From the NCBI RefSeq assembly GCF_000217715.1, contig NC_015658.1, forward strand, positions 372,001 to 436,000: DNA of 64,000 nucleotides, in the 5' to 3' direction. The notes below the pieces were generated by a model, which saw only the letters and a list, made by a program, of their open reading frames with translations, did no database searches and was not told the DNA's origin. The position numbers were made by a program, and so were the translations under genes. The DNA comes from Halopiger xanaduensis SH-6. GTDB lineage: Archaea > Halobacteriota > Halobacteria > Halobacteriales > Natrialbaceae. Positions 50,356 through 62,664 of this stretch are shown here, piece after piece. The number at the start of each line of letters is the position of its first letter. Position 1 is the stretch's first letter.

Positions 50356-50504
50356 TCAAACAGTTACCGAATCGGCTGCCGATATCTCTTTGATCTATCA
50401 AAATCTGGCTGCTGATTATAGTGAGTGTATGCAGCACATCGGCACCGACATAGCTTGGTGTTATTGCAGAAAAGTTGCCGATCTGGGAGAGCAACAAAGT
50501 GTTT

Positions 50505-53015
50505 ATGAGTCGCCTCGCCTGTCCTGTCCGTATGGGAACCCCGGGGTCTGCACCAGACGTGACACAGGGGGACGTCCGGAGGCTGTTCACCCGCTCGGAT
50601 GCGCCAGCGACACCGATTACAGCCACCGAAGCTGCCGACCAATTAGACTGCTCCCTCGCTGCTGCTCGTGAGAACTTAGCTGAGCTCGCCGACCGCGGTG
50701 AACTCCAAACGAAGCGACTCGACGAGGAGAAGGACGTCTGGTGGCGACCCGTCGATCAATCGATTGCCGACCAAGGTGGGGACCAAGAAGAGTTCAGCGC
50801 GTTCGTGAGCGCTGTTAAGGATTACGCGATTTTCCGACTCGATCCAGATGGCATCGTCACGAGCTGGAACGACGGTGCCGAGCGAATCAAGGGCTACGCT
50901 GCGGACGACATCATCGGTGAGCACTTCTCGACGTTCTACACCGACGAGGCGACTGCCGAGGGCGTGCCAGAACGGAATCTCGCCATTGCGACGGAGGAAG
51001 GCCGCGTCGAAGACGAGGGCTGGCGCGTTCGCAAGGACGGGACGCGGTTCTGGGCGAACGTCACGATTACCGCTATCCGGGACGACCAAGGGGTCCTCCA
51101 AGGGTTCACGAAGGTCACCCGCGATATGACCGAGCGCCACGAATATGAAGAACAGCTCCGCAAGGAAAAGGAGCGATTCGAAACGCTCGTGCAGGAAGTC
51201 CAGGACTATGCGATCTTCATGCTCGATCCCGACGGCATCATCCAGACGTGGAACGATGGCGCACGCGAGTTGAAAGGCTACTCGGAAGACGAAATCGTCG
51301 GCCAGCACTTCTCGACGTTCTACACCGAGGAAGACCGCGAAGACGGACGTCCTGAACAAAACCTCTCCAAAGCTATTGAAAACGGTCGAGTCGAAGACGA
51401 AAAGTGGCGCGTCCGTAAGGACGGGTCGAAGTTCTGGGCGAACGTCATCATCACAGCGCTCCACGACGACGACGGCGAACTTCGAGGATTTGTGAAGGTC
51501 ACCCAGGATATGACCGAGCGCCGCGAGTACGAGCAGCAGTTGGAGGCGCAGGCCGAACGGCTCGAACGGCAACGGGACGAGATACAGGAGGAGCTCGACG
51601 ACGTGTTCGAGCGTATCGACGACGCGTTCTATGCCCTCGACGAGGAATTCCGGTTCGAGTATGTCAACGACCGCGCCGCGGAGTATCTCGGCACATCCCC
51701 AGGAGAACTCATCGGCAGACCCATCCACGATATCCTTGGAATCGACGAGGACCACCCACTTTTAGTAGAGTTCGAGGAAGCGCTAGCCACCCAAGAACAG
51801 CGAAGTTTCGAGCGGTACTCCAACTCCATGGGGATCTGGGAGGTGATCCGCGTCTATCCGTCCGAGTCCGGACTCTCTGTGTACTTCCGGGACATCACCG
51901 AGCGCAAGGAGCGCGAGCGGGAACTCGCACGGACTCATGACCTTCTCGCACATACCGAGCGCATCGCCGATGTTGGCGGCTGGGAGGTTGACCCAGAGAC
52001 GATGGAGCCGTTCTGGTCAGACCACCTTTTCGACCTCTTGGACGTGAACTACGACGAGCAGCCGACGCTGGAAGAGGCGCTCGATGTGTACCACACTGAA
52101 GAGGATCGGGCAACTGTCGAAGGGGCCGTCGAGGAGGCCATGCAAACCGGCGAGTCGTTTGATGTCGAGGTCCGCTTCCCGCGGCCCGTTGGCGACATTG
52201 GCTGGCTCCGGGTTAAAGGCGCTCCCGAGGTAGAAGACGAGGCAGTGGTCACGCTCCGTGGGGCCGTCCAGGACGTCACCGAGCGGAAACGCCGTGAGCA
52301 GCGGCTCGAGGAGCTGATCGACCGGCTTGAAGAGTCGAACAAGCGCTTAGAGCAGTTCGCGTACGCCGCCTCCCACGACCTCCAGGAGCCCCTCAGGATG
52401 GTTTCCTCCTACCTCCAGCTCATAGAGGACCGGTACGGGGACGACCTCGACGAAAACGGTCGGGAATTCATCGAGTTCGCCGTCGATGGTGCTGAGCGCA
52501 TGCGCGCGATGATCGACGGTCTCCTCAAGTACTCCCGCGTCGAGACGCAGGGCGAGCCGTTAGAACCTGTGGAGCTTGACGCGATCATGGAGGACGTACT
52601 AGCGAACCTCCAGGTCCAGATTGAGGAGTCCGACGCCGAGATCGCTGTCGAGAATCTCCCAAAGGTCGAGGGGGACGCGAGCCAGCTCCGCCAACTCTTC
52701 CAGAACTTCCTCGATAACGCCATCGAGTATAGCGGCGATGAACCGCCATATGTGGAGGTATCGGCTGAACGCCTCGGGCCGGAGTACCGCATCTCGGTCC
52801 GGGACGAAGGGATCGGCATCGATCCGGCGGATCAAGACCGCATCTTCGAGGTGTTCCAGCGGCTTCACTCGCGTGAAGAGTACACCGGCACAGGCATCGG
52901 CCTCGCACTCTGTCAACGCATCGTCGAACGGCATGGCGGCGACATCATGATCGAGTCAGAACCTGGCGAAGGGGCGACGTTCATGGTGACGCTCCCGGCT
53001 CCGGCTGATGGCTAA
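50505..53015 (+). CDS. HTH-fused multi-PAS histidine kinase
   Basis: 836 residues from the ATG at 50505; an ATG at 50532 is a close alternative. Begins with an HTH (ITATEAADQLDCSLAAAREN, then VWWRPVD) like the kinase at 23497. Two PAS domains that are near copies follow (FVSAVKDYAIFRLDPDGIVT and LVQEVQDYAIFMLDPDGIIQ), of the type that ends GYAADDIIGEHFSTFYTDE, then a coiled coil, a third and a fourth PAS domain, HisKA in YAASHDLQEPLRM and a HATPase with NFLDNAIEYS, VRDEGIGI and GTGIGLA. No membrane helix. Orphan kinase; the kinase core is paralogous to those at 21665 and 23497. Confidence 0.93.
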   Translation: MSRLACPVRMGTPGSAPDVTQGDVRRLFTRSDAPATPITATEAADQLDCSLAAARENLAELADRGELQTKRLDEEKDVWWRPVDQSIADQGGDQEEFSAFVSAVKDYAIFRLDPDGIVTSWNDGAERIKGYAADDIIGEHFSTFYTDEATAEGVPERNLAIATEEGRVEDEGWRVRKDGTRFWANVTITAIRDDQGVLQGFTKVTRDMTERHEYEEQLRKEKERFETLVQEVQDYAIFMLDPDGIIQTWNDGARELKGYSEDEIVGQHFSTFYTEEDREDGRPEQNLSKAIENGRVEDEKWRVRKDGSKFWANVIITALHDDDGELRGFVKVTQDMTERREYEQQLEAQAERLERQRDEIQEELDDVFERIDDAFYALDEEFRFEYVNDRAAEYLGTSPGELIGRPIHDILGIDEDHPLLVEFEEALATQEQRSFERYSNSMGIWEVIRVYPSESGLSVYFRDITERKERERELARTHDLLAHTERIADVGGWEVDPETMEPFWSDHLFDLLDVNYDEQPTLEEALDVYHTEEDRATVEGAVEEAMQTGESFDVEVRFPRPVGDIGWLRVKGAPEVEDEAVVTLRGAVQDVTERKRREQRLEELIDRLEESNKRLEQFAYAASHDLQEPLRMVSSYLQLIEDRYGDDLDENGREFIEFAVDGAERMRAMIDGLLKYSRVETQGEPLEPVELDAIMEDVLANLQVQIEESDAEIAVENLPKVEGDASQLRQLFQNFLDNAIEYSGDEPPYVEVSAERLGPEYRISVRDEGIGIDPADQDRIFEVFQRLHSREEYTGTGIGLALCQRIVERHGGDIMIESEPGEGATFMVTLPAPADG

Positions 53016-53462: not shown

Positions 53463-53870
53463 TTATAATGCTAGGAATCCGAGTACCACAAGCTGCCAGC
53501 AAAACGCAATGCCTAGCAGCGCCAGTACTGTCTGGTGGATCCGGACAGGTAGTGACCAGTACTGGCACCACCATGCTAGCAAAGCACCAACAGTTGTACC
53601 GACCGTGAGGATACCGATGAAATACGGGAGAAGAAGTGCGACCTGCATTGCGAGCGGTCGTGTGAAGAGTGTGACCTCGCCGCCAGATTCTAAGACGAAT
53701 AGAAAGAGTACGATGAACCCAATCGAGACACTGCTCAAGCCGGCACCTGCTGTGCGGGCGAGCCATGGAGGGCTCGTCACCCGGCGTTTGACGGCATGTA
53801 TGAACCCACGTTGGTCATTGCGTTCATGCGAATTTTCCATCTGCTGTTGAGGGACATGTCGATCTGTCAT
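53463..53870 (-). CDS. Three-helix membrane protein, third gene of the serine-hydrolase operon
   Basis: 135 residues. A charged N-terminus of about 45 residues is followed by three hydrophobic helices (SSVSIGFIVLFLFVLES, VALLLPYFIGILTVGTTVGA and LALLGIAFCWQLVVLGFLAL). The start overlaps the end of the serine-hydrolase gene by 4 bp (ATGA), so the two are co-translated. In many archaeal and bacterial class-C beta-lactamase homologues a membrane domain is fused to the C-terminus; here it may be split into a separate subunit. Function not known. Confidence 0.7.
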   Translation of the reverse strand: MTDRHVPQQQMENSHERNDQRGFIHAVKRRVTSPPWLARTAGAGLSSVSIGFIVLFLFVLESGGEVTLFTRPLAMQVALLLPYFIGILTVGTTVGALLAWWCQYWSLPVRIHQTVLALLGIAFCWQLVVLGFLAL

Positions 53871-55546
53871 TCAGAGTCCTCCATATCTGGCTTATCACTG
53901 GTTCGATGCTGCTTCAACTGCCGCCAGGCACTGTGTCCACCCCACCCAACGAGCGAGAGGCCAAACCCAAATATTGCCGTTCCGAGAACACCCCCGGAGA
54001 CGAGTTGGCGTTCATGGAACGGGACTGGTTGGTAGACACCAGTCGGTTCACTGCTCATGTTCAGCACGTTCACAGCCCCATCTGTAACCTCGAAAGCAAG
54101 GACATCGTGGCCGCCGATCTCTTCGTACACGTATGGCTCGGTCTCAATCCACTTTCGGGCGTCACCCTCGAGAGTCGTTGTGCGCAGATCGCCGTTGTCC
54201 GCTGGTTCGACAGTCATGTGTTCCAGCAGATCTACTACCTGGAGAGGACCGCTTTGCGGGAGATATGAGAGGCTGTACTCGCCAGCGACGGTTTCAGCGC
54301 GTTCACGACCACCCGGTTCTGAAGTCGGAATAGGTGGCGTCGGTGCTGGTTGGTGACCATACTCTTCGACAATCTCCTCAACGACAGCCGCCGGAAGTTC
54401 GCTGGGGTTGCTGTTGTAGGCGACGAAGATCCCGACATCGTGGTCTGGGGCAAGCAGCAGGTGGCTCGTGAAGTTGACCGTCCCGCCAGAGTGAGCAATG
54501 AGATTGGCGTCTGGGTTCCCGTACTCGTGGAAGCCATACCGCCAATTCGTGACTGCTGGGTGGCGTACGTGGTGACGACTGTGCATCAGTTCAGCGGTCG
54601 CCGTGTCGAGAATCCGCCTGTCGTCAATTGAACCACCACCAAGGTGTGCACTCATGAACGCCGCCATATCCGTCGCTGTCGCGCTTAACGAACCCGCAGG
54701 ACGCATGTTGATGTACACATCGTTAGTTACCGTGAACGACTCACCGTCGCTGACGTGCGGCGCGGCAAGGTCGCCAGGCTGATCGTCAGAGACAGGCTGG
54801 GCAAACGTGCTGTGAGTCATGCCGAGCGGTTCGAAGATCTTCGACAGGACGTACTCGTCAAACGTCGTCTCGTGAGCTTCAGCAACGATGTGACCGGCGA
54901 GCGCCGCGCCATAGTTGGAGTATCCGACGTGCTCGCCAGGGGGACGGATGCGCGAGCGCTGCTGCTCGGTGAGCACAGTCTCCAACGAGTCGAGATCAGC
55001 TGGATCGGCGACGATGTCAGGGTCAAGCGCTGACTCAAATCCGGCAGTGTGCGTCCCGAGATGTCGGAGTGTCACCGGGTCGTCGTATGTGTCTGGGACA
55101 GTCACTTCCGAATCGTCAAGGTACGTGTTCACGTCGACATTAAGGTCGAGCACACCCCGTTCGACACCCTGCATAACAGCGGTATAGGTCACGAGTTTCC
55201 CGACCGATCCAACCCGGAACATTGTCTTGTCAGCTCGAACCGGATCGTCGGCATCGACATCAGCAGCACCGTACCCTTTGGTAAGAACGGGTCTGTCTCC
55301 CGAGACGATGGCGACAGTGGCTCCGGGTGTCGTCGTTCCAATCCGTTTGGCCATCACCTCGTCAACGAACGCTTCGAGTTCGTCCGAGTTCGTGAATGGG
55401 CTATCACCTGAACGAGAGTCGATGTCGTGAGAGGTGGTCGTGGCGCTCGTTCGACTGGCCGCAGTTCCAAGGCTGCCGAGTCCGAGACTACTAAGACACC
55501 CGAGGAACGACCGTCTCGTGGTTCCAGCGGTGCTGGTATTCATCAT
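53867..55546 (-). CDS. Tat-exported serine hydrolase (class C beta-lactamase fold)
   Basis: 559 residues from the ATG at 55546. TTRRSFLGCLSSLGLG is a Tat signal. The three active-site motifs of the penicillin-binding/class C beta-lactamase fold are intact: Ser114-Val-Gly-Lys117 in FRVGSVGKLV, Tyr209-Ser-Asn in GYSNYG and His-Ser-Gly-Gly at 352-355. A lipocalin-like domain of about 100 residues and a final membrane helix (LVSGGVLGTAIFGFGLSLVG) follow. Archaea lack peptidoglycan, so the substrate is an ester, an amide or a D-amino peptide of unknown kind rather than a beta-lactam target. Overlaps both neighbours: upstream methyltransferase and downstream membrane protein. Confidence 0.88.
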   Translation of the reverse strand: MMNTSTAGTTRRSFLGCLSSLGLGSLGTAASRTSATTTSHDIDSRSGDSPFTNSDELEAFVDEVMAKRIGTTTPGATVAIVSGDRPVLTKGYGAADVDADDPVRADKTMFRVGSVGKLVTYTAVMQGVERGVLDLNVDVNTYLDDSEVTVPDTYDDPVTLRHLGTHTAGFESALDPDIVADPADLDSLETVLTEQQRSRIRPPGEHVGYSNYGAALAGHIVAEAHETTFDEYVLSKIFEPLGMTHSTFAQPVSDDQPGDLAAPHVSDGESFTVTNDVYINMRPAGSLSATATDMAAFMSAHLGGGSIDDRRILDTATAELMHSRHHVRHPAVTNWRYGFHEYGNPDANLIAHSGGTVNFTSHLLLAPDHDVGIFVAYNSNPSELPAAVVEEIVEEYGHQPAPTPPIPTSEPGGRERAETVAGEYSLSYLPQSGPLQVVDLLEHMTVEPADNGDLRTTTLEGDARKWIETEPYVYEEIGGHDVLAFEVTDGAVNVLNMSSEPTGVYQPVPFHERQLVSGGVLGTAIFGFGLSLVGWGGHSAWRQLKQHRTSDKPDMEDSE

Positions 55547-56244
55547 GACGGGATAACCTCGATAGCAGTGACGAGACCGAAGAACGCGGTCGAGGCGTTT
55601 TCGACTGTAAGGCCGGCCTGTTCGACGGTCTCCAGCGGGTCGTGGTTCAGTCGGCAACCATTCTTCTCGTAGTGAGAGTTAGCGCGCCAATCTTGAAGCC
55701 AGGCGAGCAGCGCGGCGTCGCTGCGACTGTGTTCGAGCAGCAGGATCTCGCCATCAGGCGTACAGACGCGCTCCATCTCGCAGAGTGCGGTAATCGAATC
55801 GGGGAATGTACACGTCGAAAACGACGAGATGATGGTGTCAAAGCTGTCGTCGGGGAAGTCGAGTGTCTGAGCATCCATCTGGCGGACGATACCGTCCAGA
55901 TTGAGCCTGTCGAGTTCATCGCGGGCGTGGGCAAGCATCTCAGCGCTGATGTCGATGCCGACGACTTCGCTTGACGATGAGAGATACCGGAAGTTCCTCC
56001 CGGTGCCGCAGGCAACGTCGAGCACGCGGCCGTTCGCGTCCCCGAACTGGCGACGGCGATATCGACCGGCGAATAGTCGATCGAGTTGCTGCCACCGGGC
56101 AAGTTTGTCAGCTACGTCTGCGTATGCGTCGGTGATCTCCTCGGCCGACTTCGATCGTCTCTGGCTCGGTTGCTGTCGCTCAGTATTCTCGCTGGGTGTT
56201 CGATTCTGCTCGTTTGCCGGTTCGTGGGGATTACTCGATAACAC
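55543..56244 (-). CDS. Class I SAM-dependent methyltransferase, first gene of the operon
   Basis: About 233 residues if started at the GTG at 56244; an in-frame TTG at 56334 would add an AT-rich hydrophobic stretch that is unlikely to be translated. RVLDVACGTGRNFRYL is SAM motif I and VVGIDISAEMLAHAR motif II; FDTIISSFSTCTFPD and GEILLLEHSRSD complete the Rossmann methyltransferase fold. The LLEHSR motif is shared with ubiquinone/menaquinone-type (UbiE-like) and phospholipid methyltransferases. Its stop overlaps the start of the serine-hydrolase gene, so it heads a three-gene overlapping operon. The substrate is unknown, possibly a lipid. Confidence 0.82.
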   Translation of the reverse strand: MLSSNPHEPANEQNRTPSENTERQQPSQRRSKSAEEITDAYADVADKLARWQQLDRLFAGRYRRRQFGDANGRVLDVACGTGRNFRYLSSSSEVVGIDISAEMLAHARDELDRLNLDGIVRQMDAQTLDFPDDSFDTIISSFSTCTFPDSITALCEMERVCTPDGEILLLEHSRSDAALLAWLQDWRANSHYEKNGCRLNHDPLETVEQAGLTVENASTAFFGLVTAIEVIPS

Positions 56245-56442
56245 GGGTGGGTCTCCGTTAACTGCAATTACGGACCGAGCCAGCAACACCGATAAAACTA
56301 TTGTATACTTGATAATTAATCGGATTTGCTTCAAAACTGGCGTTGAGCGGACGGCCGAGCGATTACACTTCTAACACCGATACTCAGAGAACCACCCGAT
56401 CAGCACCAATATCCGCTCAACGTCGATTTCGTAATAATTCTG

Positions 56443-57366
56443 TTAGGAACGCTGAAACTCGCCGCTCTCACGTCGCACGCGCTCCGTCTCTATCACCGTC
56501 GCAGTCGAATCAAGATAGAGCCTCACTGCATCGTTCCCATGACGCAACACAACCTCGTACTCGTCGGGATCAGACGCGATCTGCTCGGAGGTCCAGTTCC
56601 CTTCGTAGACGTATTCGTGGAACTCCCAGATACCCCGCCTAGTCACATCGACCCCACAATCCCAATGGAATGCAATCGACGCCGGGTGGTAGACGACACT
56701 GTAGGTCAACGGGCTGTTGTACTCACGGAGACACTCCTCACAGGTACTCGTCACAACGAACGAATCGGCATCAGGCAACGCACTTTCAGGCACTTCGATT
56801 ACGTCGGCAGAGAGGTGTGATCCACACTCTGGACACATTCCTCTCCGAATCTGCCTGGCATTCTCCGCGGTACGTAGCTTGACACTCTGAATGAGAGTGT
56901 CGACGTCTCGTGTCTTGATCTGTGCGGGTGTTATCGGATGCCCTGTAACCTGTTGCTCACACGCCGTACAGTCAATCCGGAAAAACTGGTGCGAGAGGCT
57001 CGCCTCGAGCGCATCCGCTCCACAGAAGACACAGATCCCATCAATCGGTTCAGGACCGAACGATTCCGGCTGCTCGTAATTCTCAGACAGGATGAATCGA
57101 ACAATACGCTCACCAGCGTGTGAGAGCGAATACCCGTCGTCGCTTTTCCGTAGATAGGTCCCAGTGAGTTCCCCGAGATGATACGACAATTTCGACGTAT
57201 TCTCTACGTCAACATGCTCATAAATCTCAGAAAATGTGAGTTCAGCAGCCCCTGCCCCAACCTCATCAAGTTCGTATTGCGCAACAGCGACAGCGCGAAG
57301 AATATCCACACGGGTATCGTCAGCAAGAAGACGAAAGATATCCGTCGCCGAACGCTCCTCAGTCAT
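56443..57366 (-). CDS. Haloarchaeal ArsR-like winged-helix regulator with Cys-rich domain
   Basis: 307 residues. The first 90 are a winged helix (MTEERSATDIFRLLADDTRV, then TSKLSYHLGELTGTYLRKSD) typical of ArsR-like haloarchaeal regulators. Two Cys-pair clusters follow (CVFCGADAL..DCTACEQQ near 115-140 and MCPECGSHL..TCEECLREY near 175-215), which look like zinc ribbons. A C-terminal alpha/beta part includes SVVYHPASIAFHWDCG. This combination matches the DUF7351-type proteins. It reads toward the methyltransferase operon and may regulate it, but a gap of about 200 bp separates them. Confidence 0.82.
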   Translation of the reverse strand: MTEERSATDIFRLLADDTRVDILRAVAVAQYELDEVGAGAAELTFSEIYEHVDVENTSKLSYHLGELTGTYLRKSDDGYSLSHAGERIVRFILSENYEQPESFGPEPIDGICVFCGADALEASLSHQFFRIDCTACEQQVTGHPITPAQIKTRDVDTLIQSVKLRTAENARQIRRGMCPECGSHLSADVIEVPESALPDADSFVVTSTCEECLREYNSPLTYSVVYHPASIAFHWDCGVDVTRRGIWEFHEYVYEGNWTSEQIASDPDEYEVVLRHGNDAVRLYLDSTATVIETERVRRESGEFQRS

Positions 57367-57810: not shown

Positions 57811-58443
57811 TCAGCACGCGCCGCCGCCACCGCCTGCTGCACCAGCCCCGGCGCAGCTTGCAGCACTGGCACTAGCACTCGCAGCGGCAGCCGTCCCGGC
57901 GACGACGATAGCCGCGTTGTCCGTCTGACTGTAATCCTTGCATTCGCCCCATGCGACCGGTGCGATTTCGTCGTCGATATCGTCCGCTGTCTCGACTGCG
58001 TTGCGGAGATCAGTTATACCGAATCCGGCGTCGGTCGCGTATTGATCGACGAGTTGGTCTGTGAGCGCGATACGTCGGCATTCCTCGGCTTCGAAGAGTT
58101 CGTCGCCGTCGAACGTGAACTGGACGTCGTAGTGACGGACGAACACGTCGTCGAACGGCACTTGAACGGCCTTGACTGCTTCGCCGACGAGTTGCCAAAC
58201 GCGATCCATATCGGGGTCCTCGACGTCTTCACCGAGTGAGAAGCGAGCGATCGGAACGACGACCGGTTCACCGTCCGGACCTTCATTCACGACCGCGACA
58301 CCAGTTACTCCGCAGTCCTCGACGGTGTAGTTGCCACGCTCCACGGCGTCATGGAGCGCTTCATCTGCGTCGTTCTGACGAGATTCGAGATCGACCTGTT
58401 CGTCGGGCGTGTCGTCGCCGAGTAAGCGTTCGAGCAGGGACAT
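57811..58443 (-). CDS. Acidic hypothetical protein with Gly/Ala/Ser/Cys-rich tail
   Basis: 210 residues. The N-terminal half (residues 1-125) is an acidic alpha/beta protein: SLLERLLGDDTPDEQVDLES, NYTVEDCGVTGVAVVNEGPD, FDDVFVRHYDVQFTFDGDEL. The last 35 residues are nearly all small: VVAGTAAAASASASAASCAG, then AGAAGGGGGAC as the C-terminus. A tail of this sort occurs in exported or surface-attached proteins and in modified peptides, but there is no signal peptide. I recognise no family. From 57367 to 57810 there is only a short frame ending DELRRLAAELVEL near 57531, of unknown origin. Confidence 0.65.
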   Translation of the reverse strand: MSLLERLLGDDTPDEQVDLESRQNDADEALHDAVERGNYTVEDCGVTGVAVVNEGPDGEPVVVPIARFSLGEDVEDPDMDRVWQLVGEAVKAVQVPFDDVFVRHYDVQFTFDGDELFEAEECRRIALTDQLVDQYATDAGFGITDLRNAVETADDIDDEIAPVAWGECKDYSQTDNAAIVVAGTAAAASASASAASCAGAGAAGGGGGAC

Positions 58444-59703: not shown

Positions 59704-62664
59704 TTACTCGCCGTCGGGGTCGATGAACTCAAACAGCTGGTTCTCCGCGCTGGTCACGTTCCAGTGGCGGATATCCGCGCCCGGATTGGGATCCTGCTCC
59801 CAGACGTCGGCCGCGAGGTCAGCGTGGGTCGGTTCGAGCGTGAAGCCCGTGCCGCCCTCGGGCACCGCCGCGAACTTCTGGTAGTCGGCGCCCTCCCACT
59901 GGCCGAGTTCGAGGTTCGTGCCGGTGTCAGTACCGCCGCCGGCGGCCTCCAGCACGAGGTCCTCGGCGTCAGCCGCGTCGATGCGGTAGATGCCGTCTTC
60001 GAGTTCGGTCACCTCCCACGTTTGGCCGTTGGCCTCGCCCACGGTGTCGTTGTAGACGTTCGCCCCGTCGGCGAGTTCGCCGTCGACGCTCATCACGATG
60101 TCGTCGCTGTTGAGTTGGGAGGTCAGACGGTAGGTGCCCTCCGTGAGGTCGACCGTGATCGTCTCGGAGTACGATGTCGCACAACCGCTTTCGGCGGTGG
60201 CGTTCAGCGTGACGGTGTACTCGCCGGGACCGTCGTAGCTATGCGTAGCTGACCACCCCGTCGCAGTCGTGCCGTCTCCGAACTCCCACGTCAGGGAGTC
60301 GACCGACTCCTCGTTGCCGGAGACGTCCTCTGCCTCGAAGTCAATGGACTCGCCCACGTCGACGCGGGTCGCACTCGGCACGGCCCGCGCTAGCGGCTCC
60401 GGTTCGGTGATCGTGATCGTCTCAAAGTCGGTCGTCGTCTCCCCGTTCTTGTCCGTCACGGTCAGCTTGACGGGATACGTCCCCAGTTCGTCGTAGGTGT
60501 GACTGACCGACCATCCTGTCGCAGTCGTGTCGTCGCCGAACTCCCACGTCAGGGAACGGACCTTGTTGCCGTTACCCGTCAGGTCGACCGCTTCGAATTC
60601 GACTTGGTCACAGGGAGTCGCGTCGGTTTCGCTCGCGGATATCTCGGCGAGTCGGTCGTGTCCCGCAGGCTCGAACGAGGTCTTGATGTCAGGCTTCGGC
60701 GGGTCGTCCATCCCGTGGCCGAGGAAGAAACTGGGCCACGGCGGTTGGTTGTAGCCGACGTTCTGCCGGGCGATACCGGTCCGGTACTGCGGGTCGTGCA
60801 ATAGCGTATACAGCCGTGTATCCGTCTCGTGGGGCGTCGCGTACAGGCGCAACGCCTCGCTGTCGTCGGTCCGCCAGATCACTTCTTCGCGCCAGTCACC
60901 GAGAATGTCCCCCGACAGACACGGGTTGCCCTTCGACGAGTTGTTCGAGCGAGTGCCCTCGAACGATTTCAGGAGGTCGAGTTCCTGGGTCTTGGGGTTC
61001 CACTTCTTGATCCAGCCGACACCGTATCCCGCGTCCCAGCCGAGGAAATCGTGATCCAGCAGTTCACGGTGCAGATCGCCGGTCCACCAAATCGCCGAGT
61101 TTACCGAATTGACGCCGGTCTCACTGATCTGCTCACCGTCGGCGGTGAACGTCCCGGCGATCTCGCTATCGGTTTCCAGGGGCACGCCCGCCCACGCTTC
61201 CGCCCCCTCGTAGTTCGGATCGATGTCGGCGACCATCGCTCTGCCGATGTCCGCGCCGTTCCTGACGGCCCAGATGTACTCGCCCGTCTCGGCGTCGCGC
61301 ATCGACAGGCTCGGTGCCCCCTCGGCCGGATACTCGGCGGGGACGAAGATCTCCAGACCCTCCCGATCGGGGATGAAATCACCGCAGTGCTGGGCGTCGG
61401 GGTTCGACATCGTCGTCGTGTGCAGGCCGGTGCCGTCGTGGTCGATGACCGCCCCGCCGAAGACGATCTCGTCTTTGCCGTCGCCGTCGACGTCCGCGGT
61501 GGCCAGGCTGTGTGCGCCCACGCCCTCGTACTCCTCGTTCCCGTCCTCGCTGTCGAAGATCCAGCGCAAATCGAGTTCGCCTTGCCGGAACTCCCACGTG
61601 GCGAGCATCGTTTTTTCGTAGTAGCCCCGTGTGAACACGATGCTCGGTCGCTCGCCGTCGATGTAGGCGACGCCGGCGAGGAACCGATCGACGCGGTTCC
61701 CGTAGCAGTCACCCCAGTCACAGGCGTCTCCGCGTGCAGGCTGGAAGTCCTCCGTCGCAAGCTCCTCGCCCGTCTCCCCGTCGAAGACAGTAAGATACTC
61801 CGGCCCTTCAAGGATGTATCCGCTGTCATTCGTCCAGTCGGCGTCCGGATCGCCGATAACGTTACCGGCACCGTCTTCGGTACCGTCGCCTGTCCGTACC
61901 ACTAGCTCCGACTTGCCGTCGCCGTCGAAGTCGTACACCAGGAACGGCGTGTAGTGCGCGCCGGCCCGGACGTTCTGACCGAGGTTGATCCGCCAGAGGT
62001 GCTCACCTTCTATCGTGTACCCGTCGATTAGGACGTCACCCGTCGGACCGCCTTGGGAGTTGTCCTTCGCGTTCGACGGCGTCCACTTCTGGACGATGTC
62101 GAGCGTGCCGTCGCCCGTGAGGTCGCCCATACTCGCGTCGTTCGCGTGGTACGTGATTGTCTCGCCGTTCTCGCCTTCGACCGGCTCGGGCTTGTTCAGC
62201 GGAATCTCCTTGTACTGGTTGTCCCAAACCTCGACAGACTCCGACATTCCGGGTTTCCGGTTGCCCTCCTTCCTGCCGCCGGCCCGCCCGTTGCCGACCG
62301 CTCGAACGGCGTAGGTCGAGTCAGTCGTCCCCTCGGGGTCGAGGTAATTCGTGCTGTCAGTGATCGGTTTGTTGTTTAGCCGTTCACCGTCGCGATAGAC
62401 GTGGAACCCGAGATCGGCGGGTTCGGTCCCGAACAGCCGCCACCGGAGCAACACCCCGTCGTCCGCCGGAACGGCGACGAGCCCCCGATCGAGGGACTCC
62501 ATCTGACGTGTACCGTGCTCGTTGTTTCCTTTTCCTCTCCCTTGCCCGTTCCCTCTCCCAGAGGTCGCCATACTGACACCGCTGGCCCCCAGCATCGCTG
62601 TCCCGGCAGTGATTCCTAGAAACTCGCGTCGATACCGGTCTTCGTTCGTGCCTCTGTCAGACAT
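59704..62664 (-). CDS. Tat-exported rhamnogalacturonan endolyase (polysaccharide lyase family 11) with two PKD domains
   Basis: 986 residues. YRREFLGITAGTAMLG is a Tat signal. After a fibronectin-III-like segment (about 60-125), the PL11 beta-propeller occupies about 130-660, with repeated Ca2+-binding loops (DLTGDGTLDI, YDFDGDGKSELVV, DVDGDGKDEI) and the family stretch RVDRFLAGVAYIDGERPSIV. Two PKD domains (about 690-850; each with LTWEFGDxTTATGWS) and a ricin-type beta-trefoil (about 855-985) follow. The enzyme cuts the rhamnose-galacturonate backbone of pectin by beta-elimination outside the cell. Size and modules fit bacterial YesW/YesX plus binding domains. This is the strongest sign of plant-polysaccharide use in the window. 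Confidence 0.94.
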   Translation of the reverse strand: MSDRGTNEDRYRREFLGITAGTAMLGASGVSMATSGRGNGQGRGKGNNEHGTRQMESLDRGLVAVPADDGVLLRWRLFGTEPADLGFHVYRDGERLNNKPITDSTNYLDPEGTTDSTYAVRAVGNGRAGGRKEGNRKPGMSESVEVWDNQYKEIPLNKPEPVEGENGETITYHANDASMGDLTGDGTLDIVQKWTPSNAKDNSQGGPTGDVLIDGYTIEGEHLWRINLGQNVRAGAHYTPFLVYDFDGDGKSELVVRTGDGTEDGAGNVIGDPDADWTNDSGYILEGPEYLTVFDGETGEELATEDFQPARGDACDWGDCYGNRVDRFLAGVAYIDGERPSIVFTRGYYEKTMLATWEFRQGELDLRWIFDSEDGNEEYEGVGAHSLATADVDGDGKDEIVFGGAVIDHDGTGLHTTTMSNPDAQHCGDFIPDREGLEIFVPAEYPAEGAPSLSMRDAETGEYIWAVRNGADIGRAMVADIDPNYEGAEAWAGVPLETDSEIAGTFTADGEQISETGVNSVNSAIWWTGDLHRELLDHDFLGWDAGYGVGWIKKWNPKTQELDLLKSFEGTRSNNSSKGNPCLSGDILGDWREEVIWRTDDSEALRLYATPHETDTRLYTLLHDPQYRTGIARQNVGYNQPPWPSFFLGHGMDDPPKPDIKTSFEPAGHDRLAEISASETDATPCDQVEFEAVDLTGNGNKVRSLTWEFGDDTTATGWSVSHTYDELGTYPVKLTVTDKNGETTTDFETITITEPEPLARAVPSATRVDVGESIDFEAEDVSGNEESVDSLTWEFGDGTTATGWSATHSYDGPGEYTVTLNATAESGCATSYSETITVDLTEGTYRLTSQLNSDDIVMSVDGELADGANVYNDTVGEANGQTWEVTELEDGIYRIDAADAEDLVLEAAGGGTDTGTNLELGQWEGADYQKFAAVPEGGTGFTLEPTHADLAADVWEQDPNPGADIRHWNVTSAENQLFEFIDPDGE

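Follow-up and report, generated by a model that had tools for sequence, protein, structure and literature searches.

Halopiger xanaduensis SH-6 carries, in a 64,000-nucleotide (nt) stretch of contig NC_015658.1 (assembly GCF_000217715.1, positions 372,001 to 436,000; the whole stretch is called the window here), overlapping genes for a methyltransferase (MT), a serine hydrolase (HYD) and a small protein with three hydrophobic helices (TM3), with a regulator gene (REG) upstream of them. Comparison with relatives in which one gene covers both proteins shows HYD and TM3 to correspond to two parts of one predicted membrane-anchored serine hydrolase. Comparison of loci likewise shows a cassette, REG-MT-(CPBP)-HYD-TM3, where CPBP is a CAAX-type membrane protease encoded in some copies, that is patchily shared among haloarchaeal families. 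A previous sequence-only reading of this DNA had treated TM3 as a third, separate partner, a view that the single-gene relatives replace: TM3 corresponds to the split-off membrane part of the same hydrolase.

A serine hydrolase divided between two genes

When HYD and TM3 were searched for in 125 genomes of the family, matches to both fell within single open reading frames (ORFs) of ~700 amino acids (aa) in several relatives. Eight HYD loci without MT nearby were fetched from the family (loci L114–L121 in our numbering); six of these read HYD and then TM3 in one ORF (L115–L118, L120 and L121; ~704–726 aa), whereas L119 has the split form and L114 is the remnant of a split locus. The window's own genome holds a paralogue (L002), a single ORF of 720 aa whose end matches TM3 (E = 3.3e-7). 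By hydropathy, HYD has one hydrophobic segment at its C-terminus (residues 515–533) and TM3 has three (42–60, 73–91 and 115–133), and together these are colinear with the four helices of L116 (556–574, 631–649, 664–682 and 706–724); the helix order of L115 agrees with both. Colinear single-ORF homologues, as expected of a naturally split membrane protein, are therefore available in L115–L118, L120, L121 and L002, with helix order compared in L115, L116 and L002. The break itself falls in an arginine- and lysine-rich loop between transmembrane helices 1 and 2, which the positive-inside rule would put in the cytoplasm. TM3 has no Pfam or NCBIfam match of its own at E ≤ 0.1.

The single-ORF hydrolases L115, L116 and L002 share the PF00144 catalytic domain of HYD, and L115 and L116 continue into four C-terminal hydrophobic helices in the HYD-TM3 order (the last three in L002 at the hydropathy cut-off used). 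They differ in being one gene rather than two, and the flanks fetched for L115–L118, L120 and L121 contain no match to MT. These six share a neighbourhood of their own, with homologues of a DUF7521 protein in all six and of aldehyde ferredoxin oxidoreductase in five, as named by a Pfam scan of the L116 copies only.

On a tree of 54 HYD rows (L114, at 141 aa, was dropped as too short) the split state needs two changes, and the data are compatible with all split forms making up one clade (p-AU 0.293). We infer one fission of an ancestral single gene, with a second fission or a re-fusion possible. Split-Doa10, in the sections of PMC3464245 drawn on here, is likewise a polytopic membrane protein split by gene fission, but it is a eukaryotic nuclear gene, whereas HYD/TM3 is an archaeal operon with overlapping reading frames.

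A conserved junction between HYD and TM3

Across 31 split loci, HYD and TM3 overlap by 4 nt in all 29 junctions that were read directly (27 ATGA and two GTGA, the latter in L186 and L188), and the other two loci, L102 and L108, keep the ATGA and are frameshifted elsewhere. Three further HYD loci lay outside this scoring, L182 at a contig end and L184 and L187 with truncated HYD, while a plasmid copy in Haloarcula pelagica provides one more 4-nt overlap. Just 5' of the TM3 start, GGAGG is present in 21 of the 29 junctions. The pair HYD/TM3 has both marks of termination-reinitiation, a short overlap and a Shine-Dalgarno (SD) motif in the upstream gene. Ratios of nonsynonymous to synonymous substitution (dN/dS), calculated with our own Nei-Gojobori script, range from 0.10 to 0.39 in 27 comparisons of REG, MT, HYD and TM3 (seven locus pairs, one without REG).

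Co-directional overlaps are common in prokaryotes and alone prove little: overlapping co-directional pairs of any length amount to close to 15% in most prokaryote groups (PMC6728339), and spacings of −4 and −1 nt are by far the commonest (PMC10666635). It is the conservation of the HYD/TM3 overlap that exceeds this ordinary frequency. In the portions of the two papers used here, four tested 4-nt pairs of Haloferax volcanii were strictly coupled (PMC6728339), and subunits of a complex are the products of 45.2% of gene pairs with spacings from −8 to +10 nt, compared with 5.6% of widely spaced pairs (PMC10666635). HYD/TM3 shares with the termination-reinitiation pairs of H. volcanii the 4-nt AUGA overlap, the SD motif in the upstream gene and the common direction (PMC6728339 and PMC10666635, same portions), and differs in joining two parts of one hydrolase and in being known here from sequence.

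It should be noted for annotators that TM3 of Haloarcula pelagica (L199:7719-7958) is annotated from an internal start, although the ATGA opens a complete ORF of 135 aa. The Natrinema TM3 (L201:6589-6828) is annotated from an internal start in the same way but is truly frameshifted.

A variable junction between MT and HYD

The 4-bp overlap at each of the two junctions that the sequence-only reading reported is present, exactly 4 nt (ATGA) at both (Table 1), but the tight coupling of all three genes that it drew from them does not hold for MT and HYD. Among the 29 MT-HYD loci (L106–L113, L167–L184, L187, L102 and the window), an ATG at −4 is the sole nearby HYD start in five (the window, L112, L113, L181 and L187). 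Most of the others have candidate HYD starts from −8 to +251 nt, several in some loci, or have a CPBP gene between MT and HYD; L111 has no candidate start within 10 nt. The intervening CPBP gene is near full-length in five of the 29 (L106, L107, L108, L170 and L184) and a remnant in three (L172, L173 and L102), and the Haloarcula pelagica copy has it as well. Because the window groups on the HYD tree with L113 (support 100/96) and then with L108 (100/95), which retains CPBP, its loss on the window's branch is the simplest history. The MT/HYD overlap of the window would fit such a loss, although a gain in L108 is possible. Two loci, L124 and L196, have REG-MT-CPBP without HYD in the fetched flank.

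Composition and distribution of the cassette

In a sample of 391 genomes of the class (HYD at E ≤ 1e-130, MT and REG at E ≤ 1e-60), MT lies on the same strand no more than 2 kb upstream of HYD at 25 of 33 HYD places, and REG accompanies 23 of these pairs; the co-occurrence that had been proposed as a check on the operon is thus borne out. The remaining eight HYD places comprise five single-ORF forms and three split ones. The tie between MT and HYD is one-sided, HYD being usually found with MT and MT mostly without HYD. The earlier reading overlooked the upstream REG and, in other loci, the CPBP protease. MT lies within 600 nt downstream at 37 of 57 REG places, and REG stands 5' of MT in 27 of the 29 MT-HYD loci (the exceptions are L109 and L110, and in L172 REG lies in two frames); REG-MT pairs without HYD in the fetched flanks also exist.

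The HYD tree mixes families f1, f3 and f4, with L178 (f4) placed beside L106 and L107 (f1; 98/94) and L172 (f3) beside L182 (f4; 97/97). Three close copies reside on plasmids, in Haloarcula pelagica, Natrinema sp. SYSU A 869 and Halobellus limi; the last two are loci L108 and L176, and only the Haloarcula pelagica copy is additional. The cassette is evidently mobile and horizontally moving. HYD or TM3 has decayed through truncation, frameshift or reduction to a remnant in L184, L187, L102, L108 and L114, and REG-MT stays in four of these five.

In many loci (L093, L095–L097, L106, L107 and others), TM3 is followed by genes for an HTH_10 regulator and alpha/beta hydrolases, frequently with one for a cytochrome P450 as well. 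An HTH_10 protein of at least 57% identity lies downstream within the fetched flank in 15 of the 29 MT-HYD loci, with flank lengths that differ among loci. The window's genome gave no match to that P450 (E ≤ 1e-90) or to the HTH_10 protein (E ≤ 1e-40; 23 of 72 candidates scored), and these neighbours were left out as parts of the system, the window being without them. No paper describing this cassette was found in a literature search conducted mostly without subscription journals.

Families of MT and HYD

The kinds of protein first proposed, a UbiE-like methyltransferase, an SxxK serine hydrolase with a membrane anchor and a protein of three helices, were all correct. MT is of the same fold family as UbiE/MenG and other class I methyltransferases but scores below the NCBIfam cut-offs: 59 of these families matched and MT is under the cut-off of all 25 that were shown, including that of the UbiE/MenG quinone methyltransferase (TIGR01934; 71.4 bits against a curated 158.35). 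MT is 702 nt long, the same as the RefSeq MT of Haloarcula pelagica. A thiol-methyltransferase (METTL7/TMT1-like) identity, suggested by a C-terminal pattern, is not claimed; the literature search turned up no archaeal enzyme of that kind. Synthesis of phosphatidylglycerophosphate (PGP) methyl ester was also considered and was dropped for want of evidence, this lipid being, as far as is known, universal in haloarchaea whereas MT (E ≤ 1e-60) occurs in 88 of the 391 genomes. A role in halocin immunity was considered as well and dropped on the same ground.

HYD belongs with the S12/class C beta-lactamase-like proteins, scoring 192.8 bits against the PF00144 cut-off of 27 and possessing the SxxK, YxN and HxG motifs; S114-V-G-K117, Y209-S-N211 and H352-S-G354 are invariant in 11 aligned rows, and a pair of arginines near the start is nearly so. 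It is not assigned to the class C beta-lactamase equivalog NF033085 (90.9 bits against a cut-off of 415). The best two sequence matches in the PDB are 2qmi, the Pab87/CubicO peptidase of Pyrococcus abyssi, and 7spn, the IS11 carboxylesterase. In the parts of PMC2651629 and PMC9972953 consulted, Pab87 shares SxxK, YxN and HxG with HYD and IS11 has equivalent residues; Pab87 hydrolyses D-amino acid peptides (PMC2651629), IS11 hydrolyses esters (PMC9972953), and each bears a C-terminal lipocalin domain. HYD differs from both in its membrane anchor. In the C-terminal region of HYD, where a lipocalin domain would lie, there is no Pfam match, and the 7spn alignment ends at HYD residue 424. The CubicO/Pab87 motifs -YAEAF/L-, -FFYLN- and C-terminal -ERY-, as given in those parts of PMC2651629, were not seen in HYD by eye, and VGYSNYG stands at the position of the second.

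The spacer between REG and MT

The spacer between REG and MT measures 197–209 nt in 24 of 25 close loci (326 in L172) and 164–227 nt in distant loci. A block within it is conserved in the 25 close loci and in 11 distant ones (REG identity of 48–56%), L122 having been omitted by hand from the comparison, and the distant REG-MT pairs retain the block without HYD. The pattern TGATA-N3-TATCA occurs within two mismatches in 32 of the 36 spacers, compared with ~9% in mononucleotide shuffles, for a pattern chosen after seeing the alignment and spacers that are related. The block would be promoter/operator-like, a putative target of REG. In 24 aligned loci, conservation upstream of REG is limited to a short promoter-like stretch, which we take as the probable left edge of the cassette.

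Features of the locus

Table 1. Features of the cassette in Halopiger xanaduensis SH-6; coordinates are positions in the window.
Feature	Position	Strand	Evidence or remark
REG, helix-turn-helix (HTH) regulator (DUF7347 + DUF7351), first gene of the cassette	56443-57366	-	Pfam DUF7351 3.5e-43, DUF7347 3.8e-24
Conserved block 5' of MT, promoter/operator-like	56286-56347	-	aligned REG-MT spacers
Element related to TGATA-N3-TATCA, inside the block	56310-56322	-	match in the window
Palindrome-like element, inside the block	56289-56304	-	match in the window
MT, class I S-adenosylmethionine-dependent methyltransferase, 233 aa, GTG start	55543-56244	-	Methyltransf_11 1e-22, Ubie_methyltran 6.9e-16
ATGA overlap MT/HYD, not conserved	55543-55546	-	fits loss of a CPBP protease gene
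HYD, S12/class C beta-lactamase-like serine hydrolase, predicted to be exported, one C-terminal hydrophobic helix	53867-55546	-	PF00144 1.2e-56
GGAGG, Shine-Dalgarno-like, 5' of the TM3 start codon	53878-53882	-	GGAGG in 21/29 junctions
ATGA overlap HYD/TM3, conserved split junction	53867-53870	-	comparison of split loci
TM3, three-helix membrane protein, split-off C-terminal membrane domain of HYD	53463-53870	-	matches the C-terminus of single-ORF hydrolases

Around the cassette, a multi-PAS histidine kinase (50475-53015, plus strand) is convergent with TM3 and has no counterpart among the ORF clusters common to 13 named loci. On the minus strand lie a 210-aa ORF with an Ala/Ser/Gly/Cys-rich tail at its end and no Pfam match at E ≤ 0.1 (57811-58443) and a rhamnogalacturonan lyase family 11 protein of 986 aa with PKD and ricin-B-like lectin matches (59704-62664).

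Discussion

The explanation that best accounts for the locus combines a hydrolase split into two chains, a regulated cassette and a role in dealing with a compound, and as a whole we give it a probability of about 55%. Its components are not equally secure: the split enzyme and the cassette are held with high confidence, while the inactivation of a compound is a tentative proposal. The most probable arrangement is a single hydrolase of two chains, HYD and TM3, produced at a 1:1 ratio through termination-reinitiation. Export of HYD would probably follow the twin-arginine translocation (Tat) route, and its anchor would leave the catalytic domain on the outside; ribosomes ending HYD at its TGA would restart at the overlapping ATG, aided by GGAGG, and TM3, made at about 1:1 with HYD, would pack against the HYD anchor to rebuild a four-helix domain. 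REG would control both MT and HYD/TM3. With MT inside and an acyl-serine hydrolase outside, the two enzymes may share a single class of target, small molecules or peptides encountered at the envelope, and our guess is that a foreign compound is inactivated or modified in this way. Three traits of the cassette (it is accessory, it moves and it has a linked regulator) lead us to prefer inactivation, as do the hydrolytic activities of two relatives of HYD, Pab87 on D-amino acid peptides and IS11 on esters. The sequence-only proposal of one process at the membrane thus survives in part: co-occurrence of the genes speaks for it, TM3 as a separate partner and the coupling of MT to HYD have fallen away, and what is left is plausible but unproven.

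Several observations weigh against this explanation. Three split HYD loci have no MT near them (G276, G331 and G292), and with HYD downstream of 25 of 101 MT places in the 391 genomes, MT may not share the substrate of HYD. Decay is frequent: truncation affects HYD in L184 and L187, L102 and L108 are frameshifted, and the REG of L172 is spread over two frames. With the hydropathy cut-off applied here, the paralogue L002 has the last three of the four helices only and the HYD of the split locus L119 has no anchor helix. Structure modelling left the HYD-TM3 assembly without structural support, the model failing for HYD (11 rows; predicted local distance difference test, pLDDT, 31.6) and being weak for TM3 (12 rows; pLDDT 58.7). 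As for the putative operator, TGATA-N3-TATCA lies off the aligned site in L171 and L190, so that 30 of the 36 spacers have it in position; two mismatches fall within the copy in the window, and the pattern was picked post hoc from spacers that share descent.

Three independent proteins of a single membrane pathway, with MT modifying a lipid or peptide, HYD hydrolysing it and TM3 as a separate permease- or immunity-type partner, would agree with the conserved gene order and co-occurrence and with TM3 being a separate ORF under purifying selection. Such an arrangement is rather unlikely when TM3 aligns colinearly with the C-terminal end of single-ORF hydrolases and the MT/HYD spacing is variable, with a CPBP gene that may intervene. 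HYD/TM3 could instead be a sensor whose outer, beta-lactamase-like domain is acylated by a compound, with the membrane domain and, where present, CPBP signalling inward so that REG frees the operator, in a manner loosely like BlaR1/BlaI. One cassette brings together a regulator, a conserved operator-like block and a protein with a serine acyl-enzyme fold, joined in some loci by an intramembrane protease, and in L188, a split HYD of another lineage, an HTH gene precedes and overlaps the longest HYD ORF. Sensing is nevertheless quite unlikely: the near full-length CPBP occurs in only five of the 29 cassettes and a remnant in three, the retention of the block by distant REG-MT pairs without HYD means that regulation does not need HYD, and the YxN motif of HYD is intact, as in true hydrolases. 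In systems of the BlaR1/BlaI type the sensor chain is fused to an M56 metalloprotease, whereas the protease here is a separate gene, and the only protease family that Pfam matched in HYD was PF00144, TM3 matching none. The fuller version of this idea, an archaeal envelope-sensing cassette in which a split, two-chain membrane protein of beta-lactamase fold detects or destroys an extracellular acyl compound, CPBP relays the signal where kept and operator-bound REG switches on MT and HYD, is a long shot; if true, archaea would have assembled from different components a functional counterpart to BlaR1/BlaI.

A programmed −1 frameshift at the HYD/TM3 junction, giving one fused polypeptide, might be expected because TM3 lies in the −1 frame with respect to HYD at the 29 junctions that were read directly, and because fused homologues exist. 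It is very improbable given that an ATG or GTG is always kept at the overlap, mostly behind GGAGG (21 of 29), and that no slippery run was seen by eye in the printed junctions, no dedicated search having been run. Recent pseudogene splits or assembly errors, which the frameshifts or truncations in L102, L108, L184 and L187 might suggest, have almost nothing to recommend them when 31 loci from several families have the HYD/TM3 overlap in common and dN/dS values are clearly under 1.

On the preferred explanation of a split hydrolase in a regulated cassette, familiar enzymes take an unusual form here. HYD/TM3 would be a membrane enzyme that is split in nature, its two parts joined by a 4-nt overlap that divergent haloarchaea have retained, while the neighbouring MT/HYD overlap comes and goes. 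The contrast of the two overlaps within one operon offers a natural experiment on whether overlaps persist because they keep the subunits of a complex at 1:1. With a mobile cassette and its candidate operator now named, a search for the substrate becomes possible.

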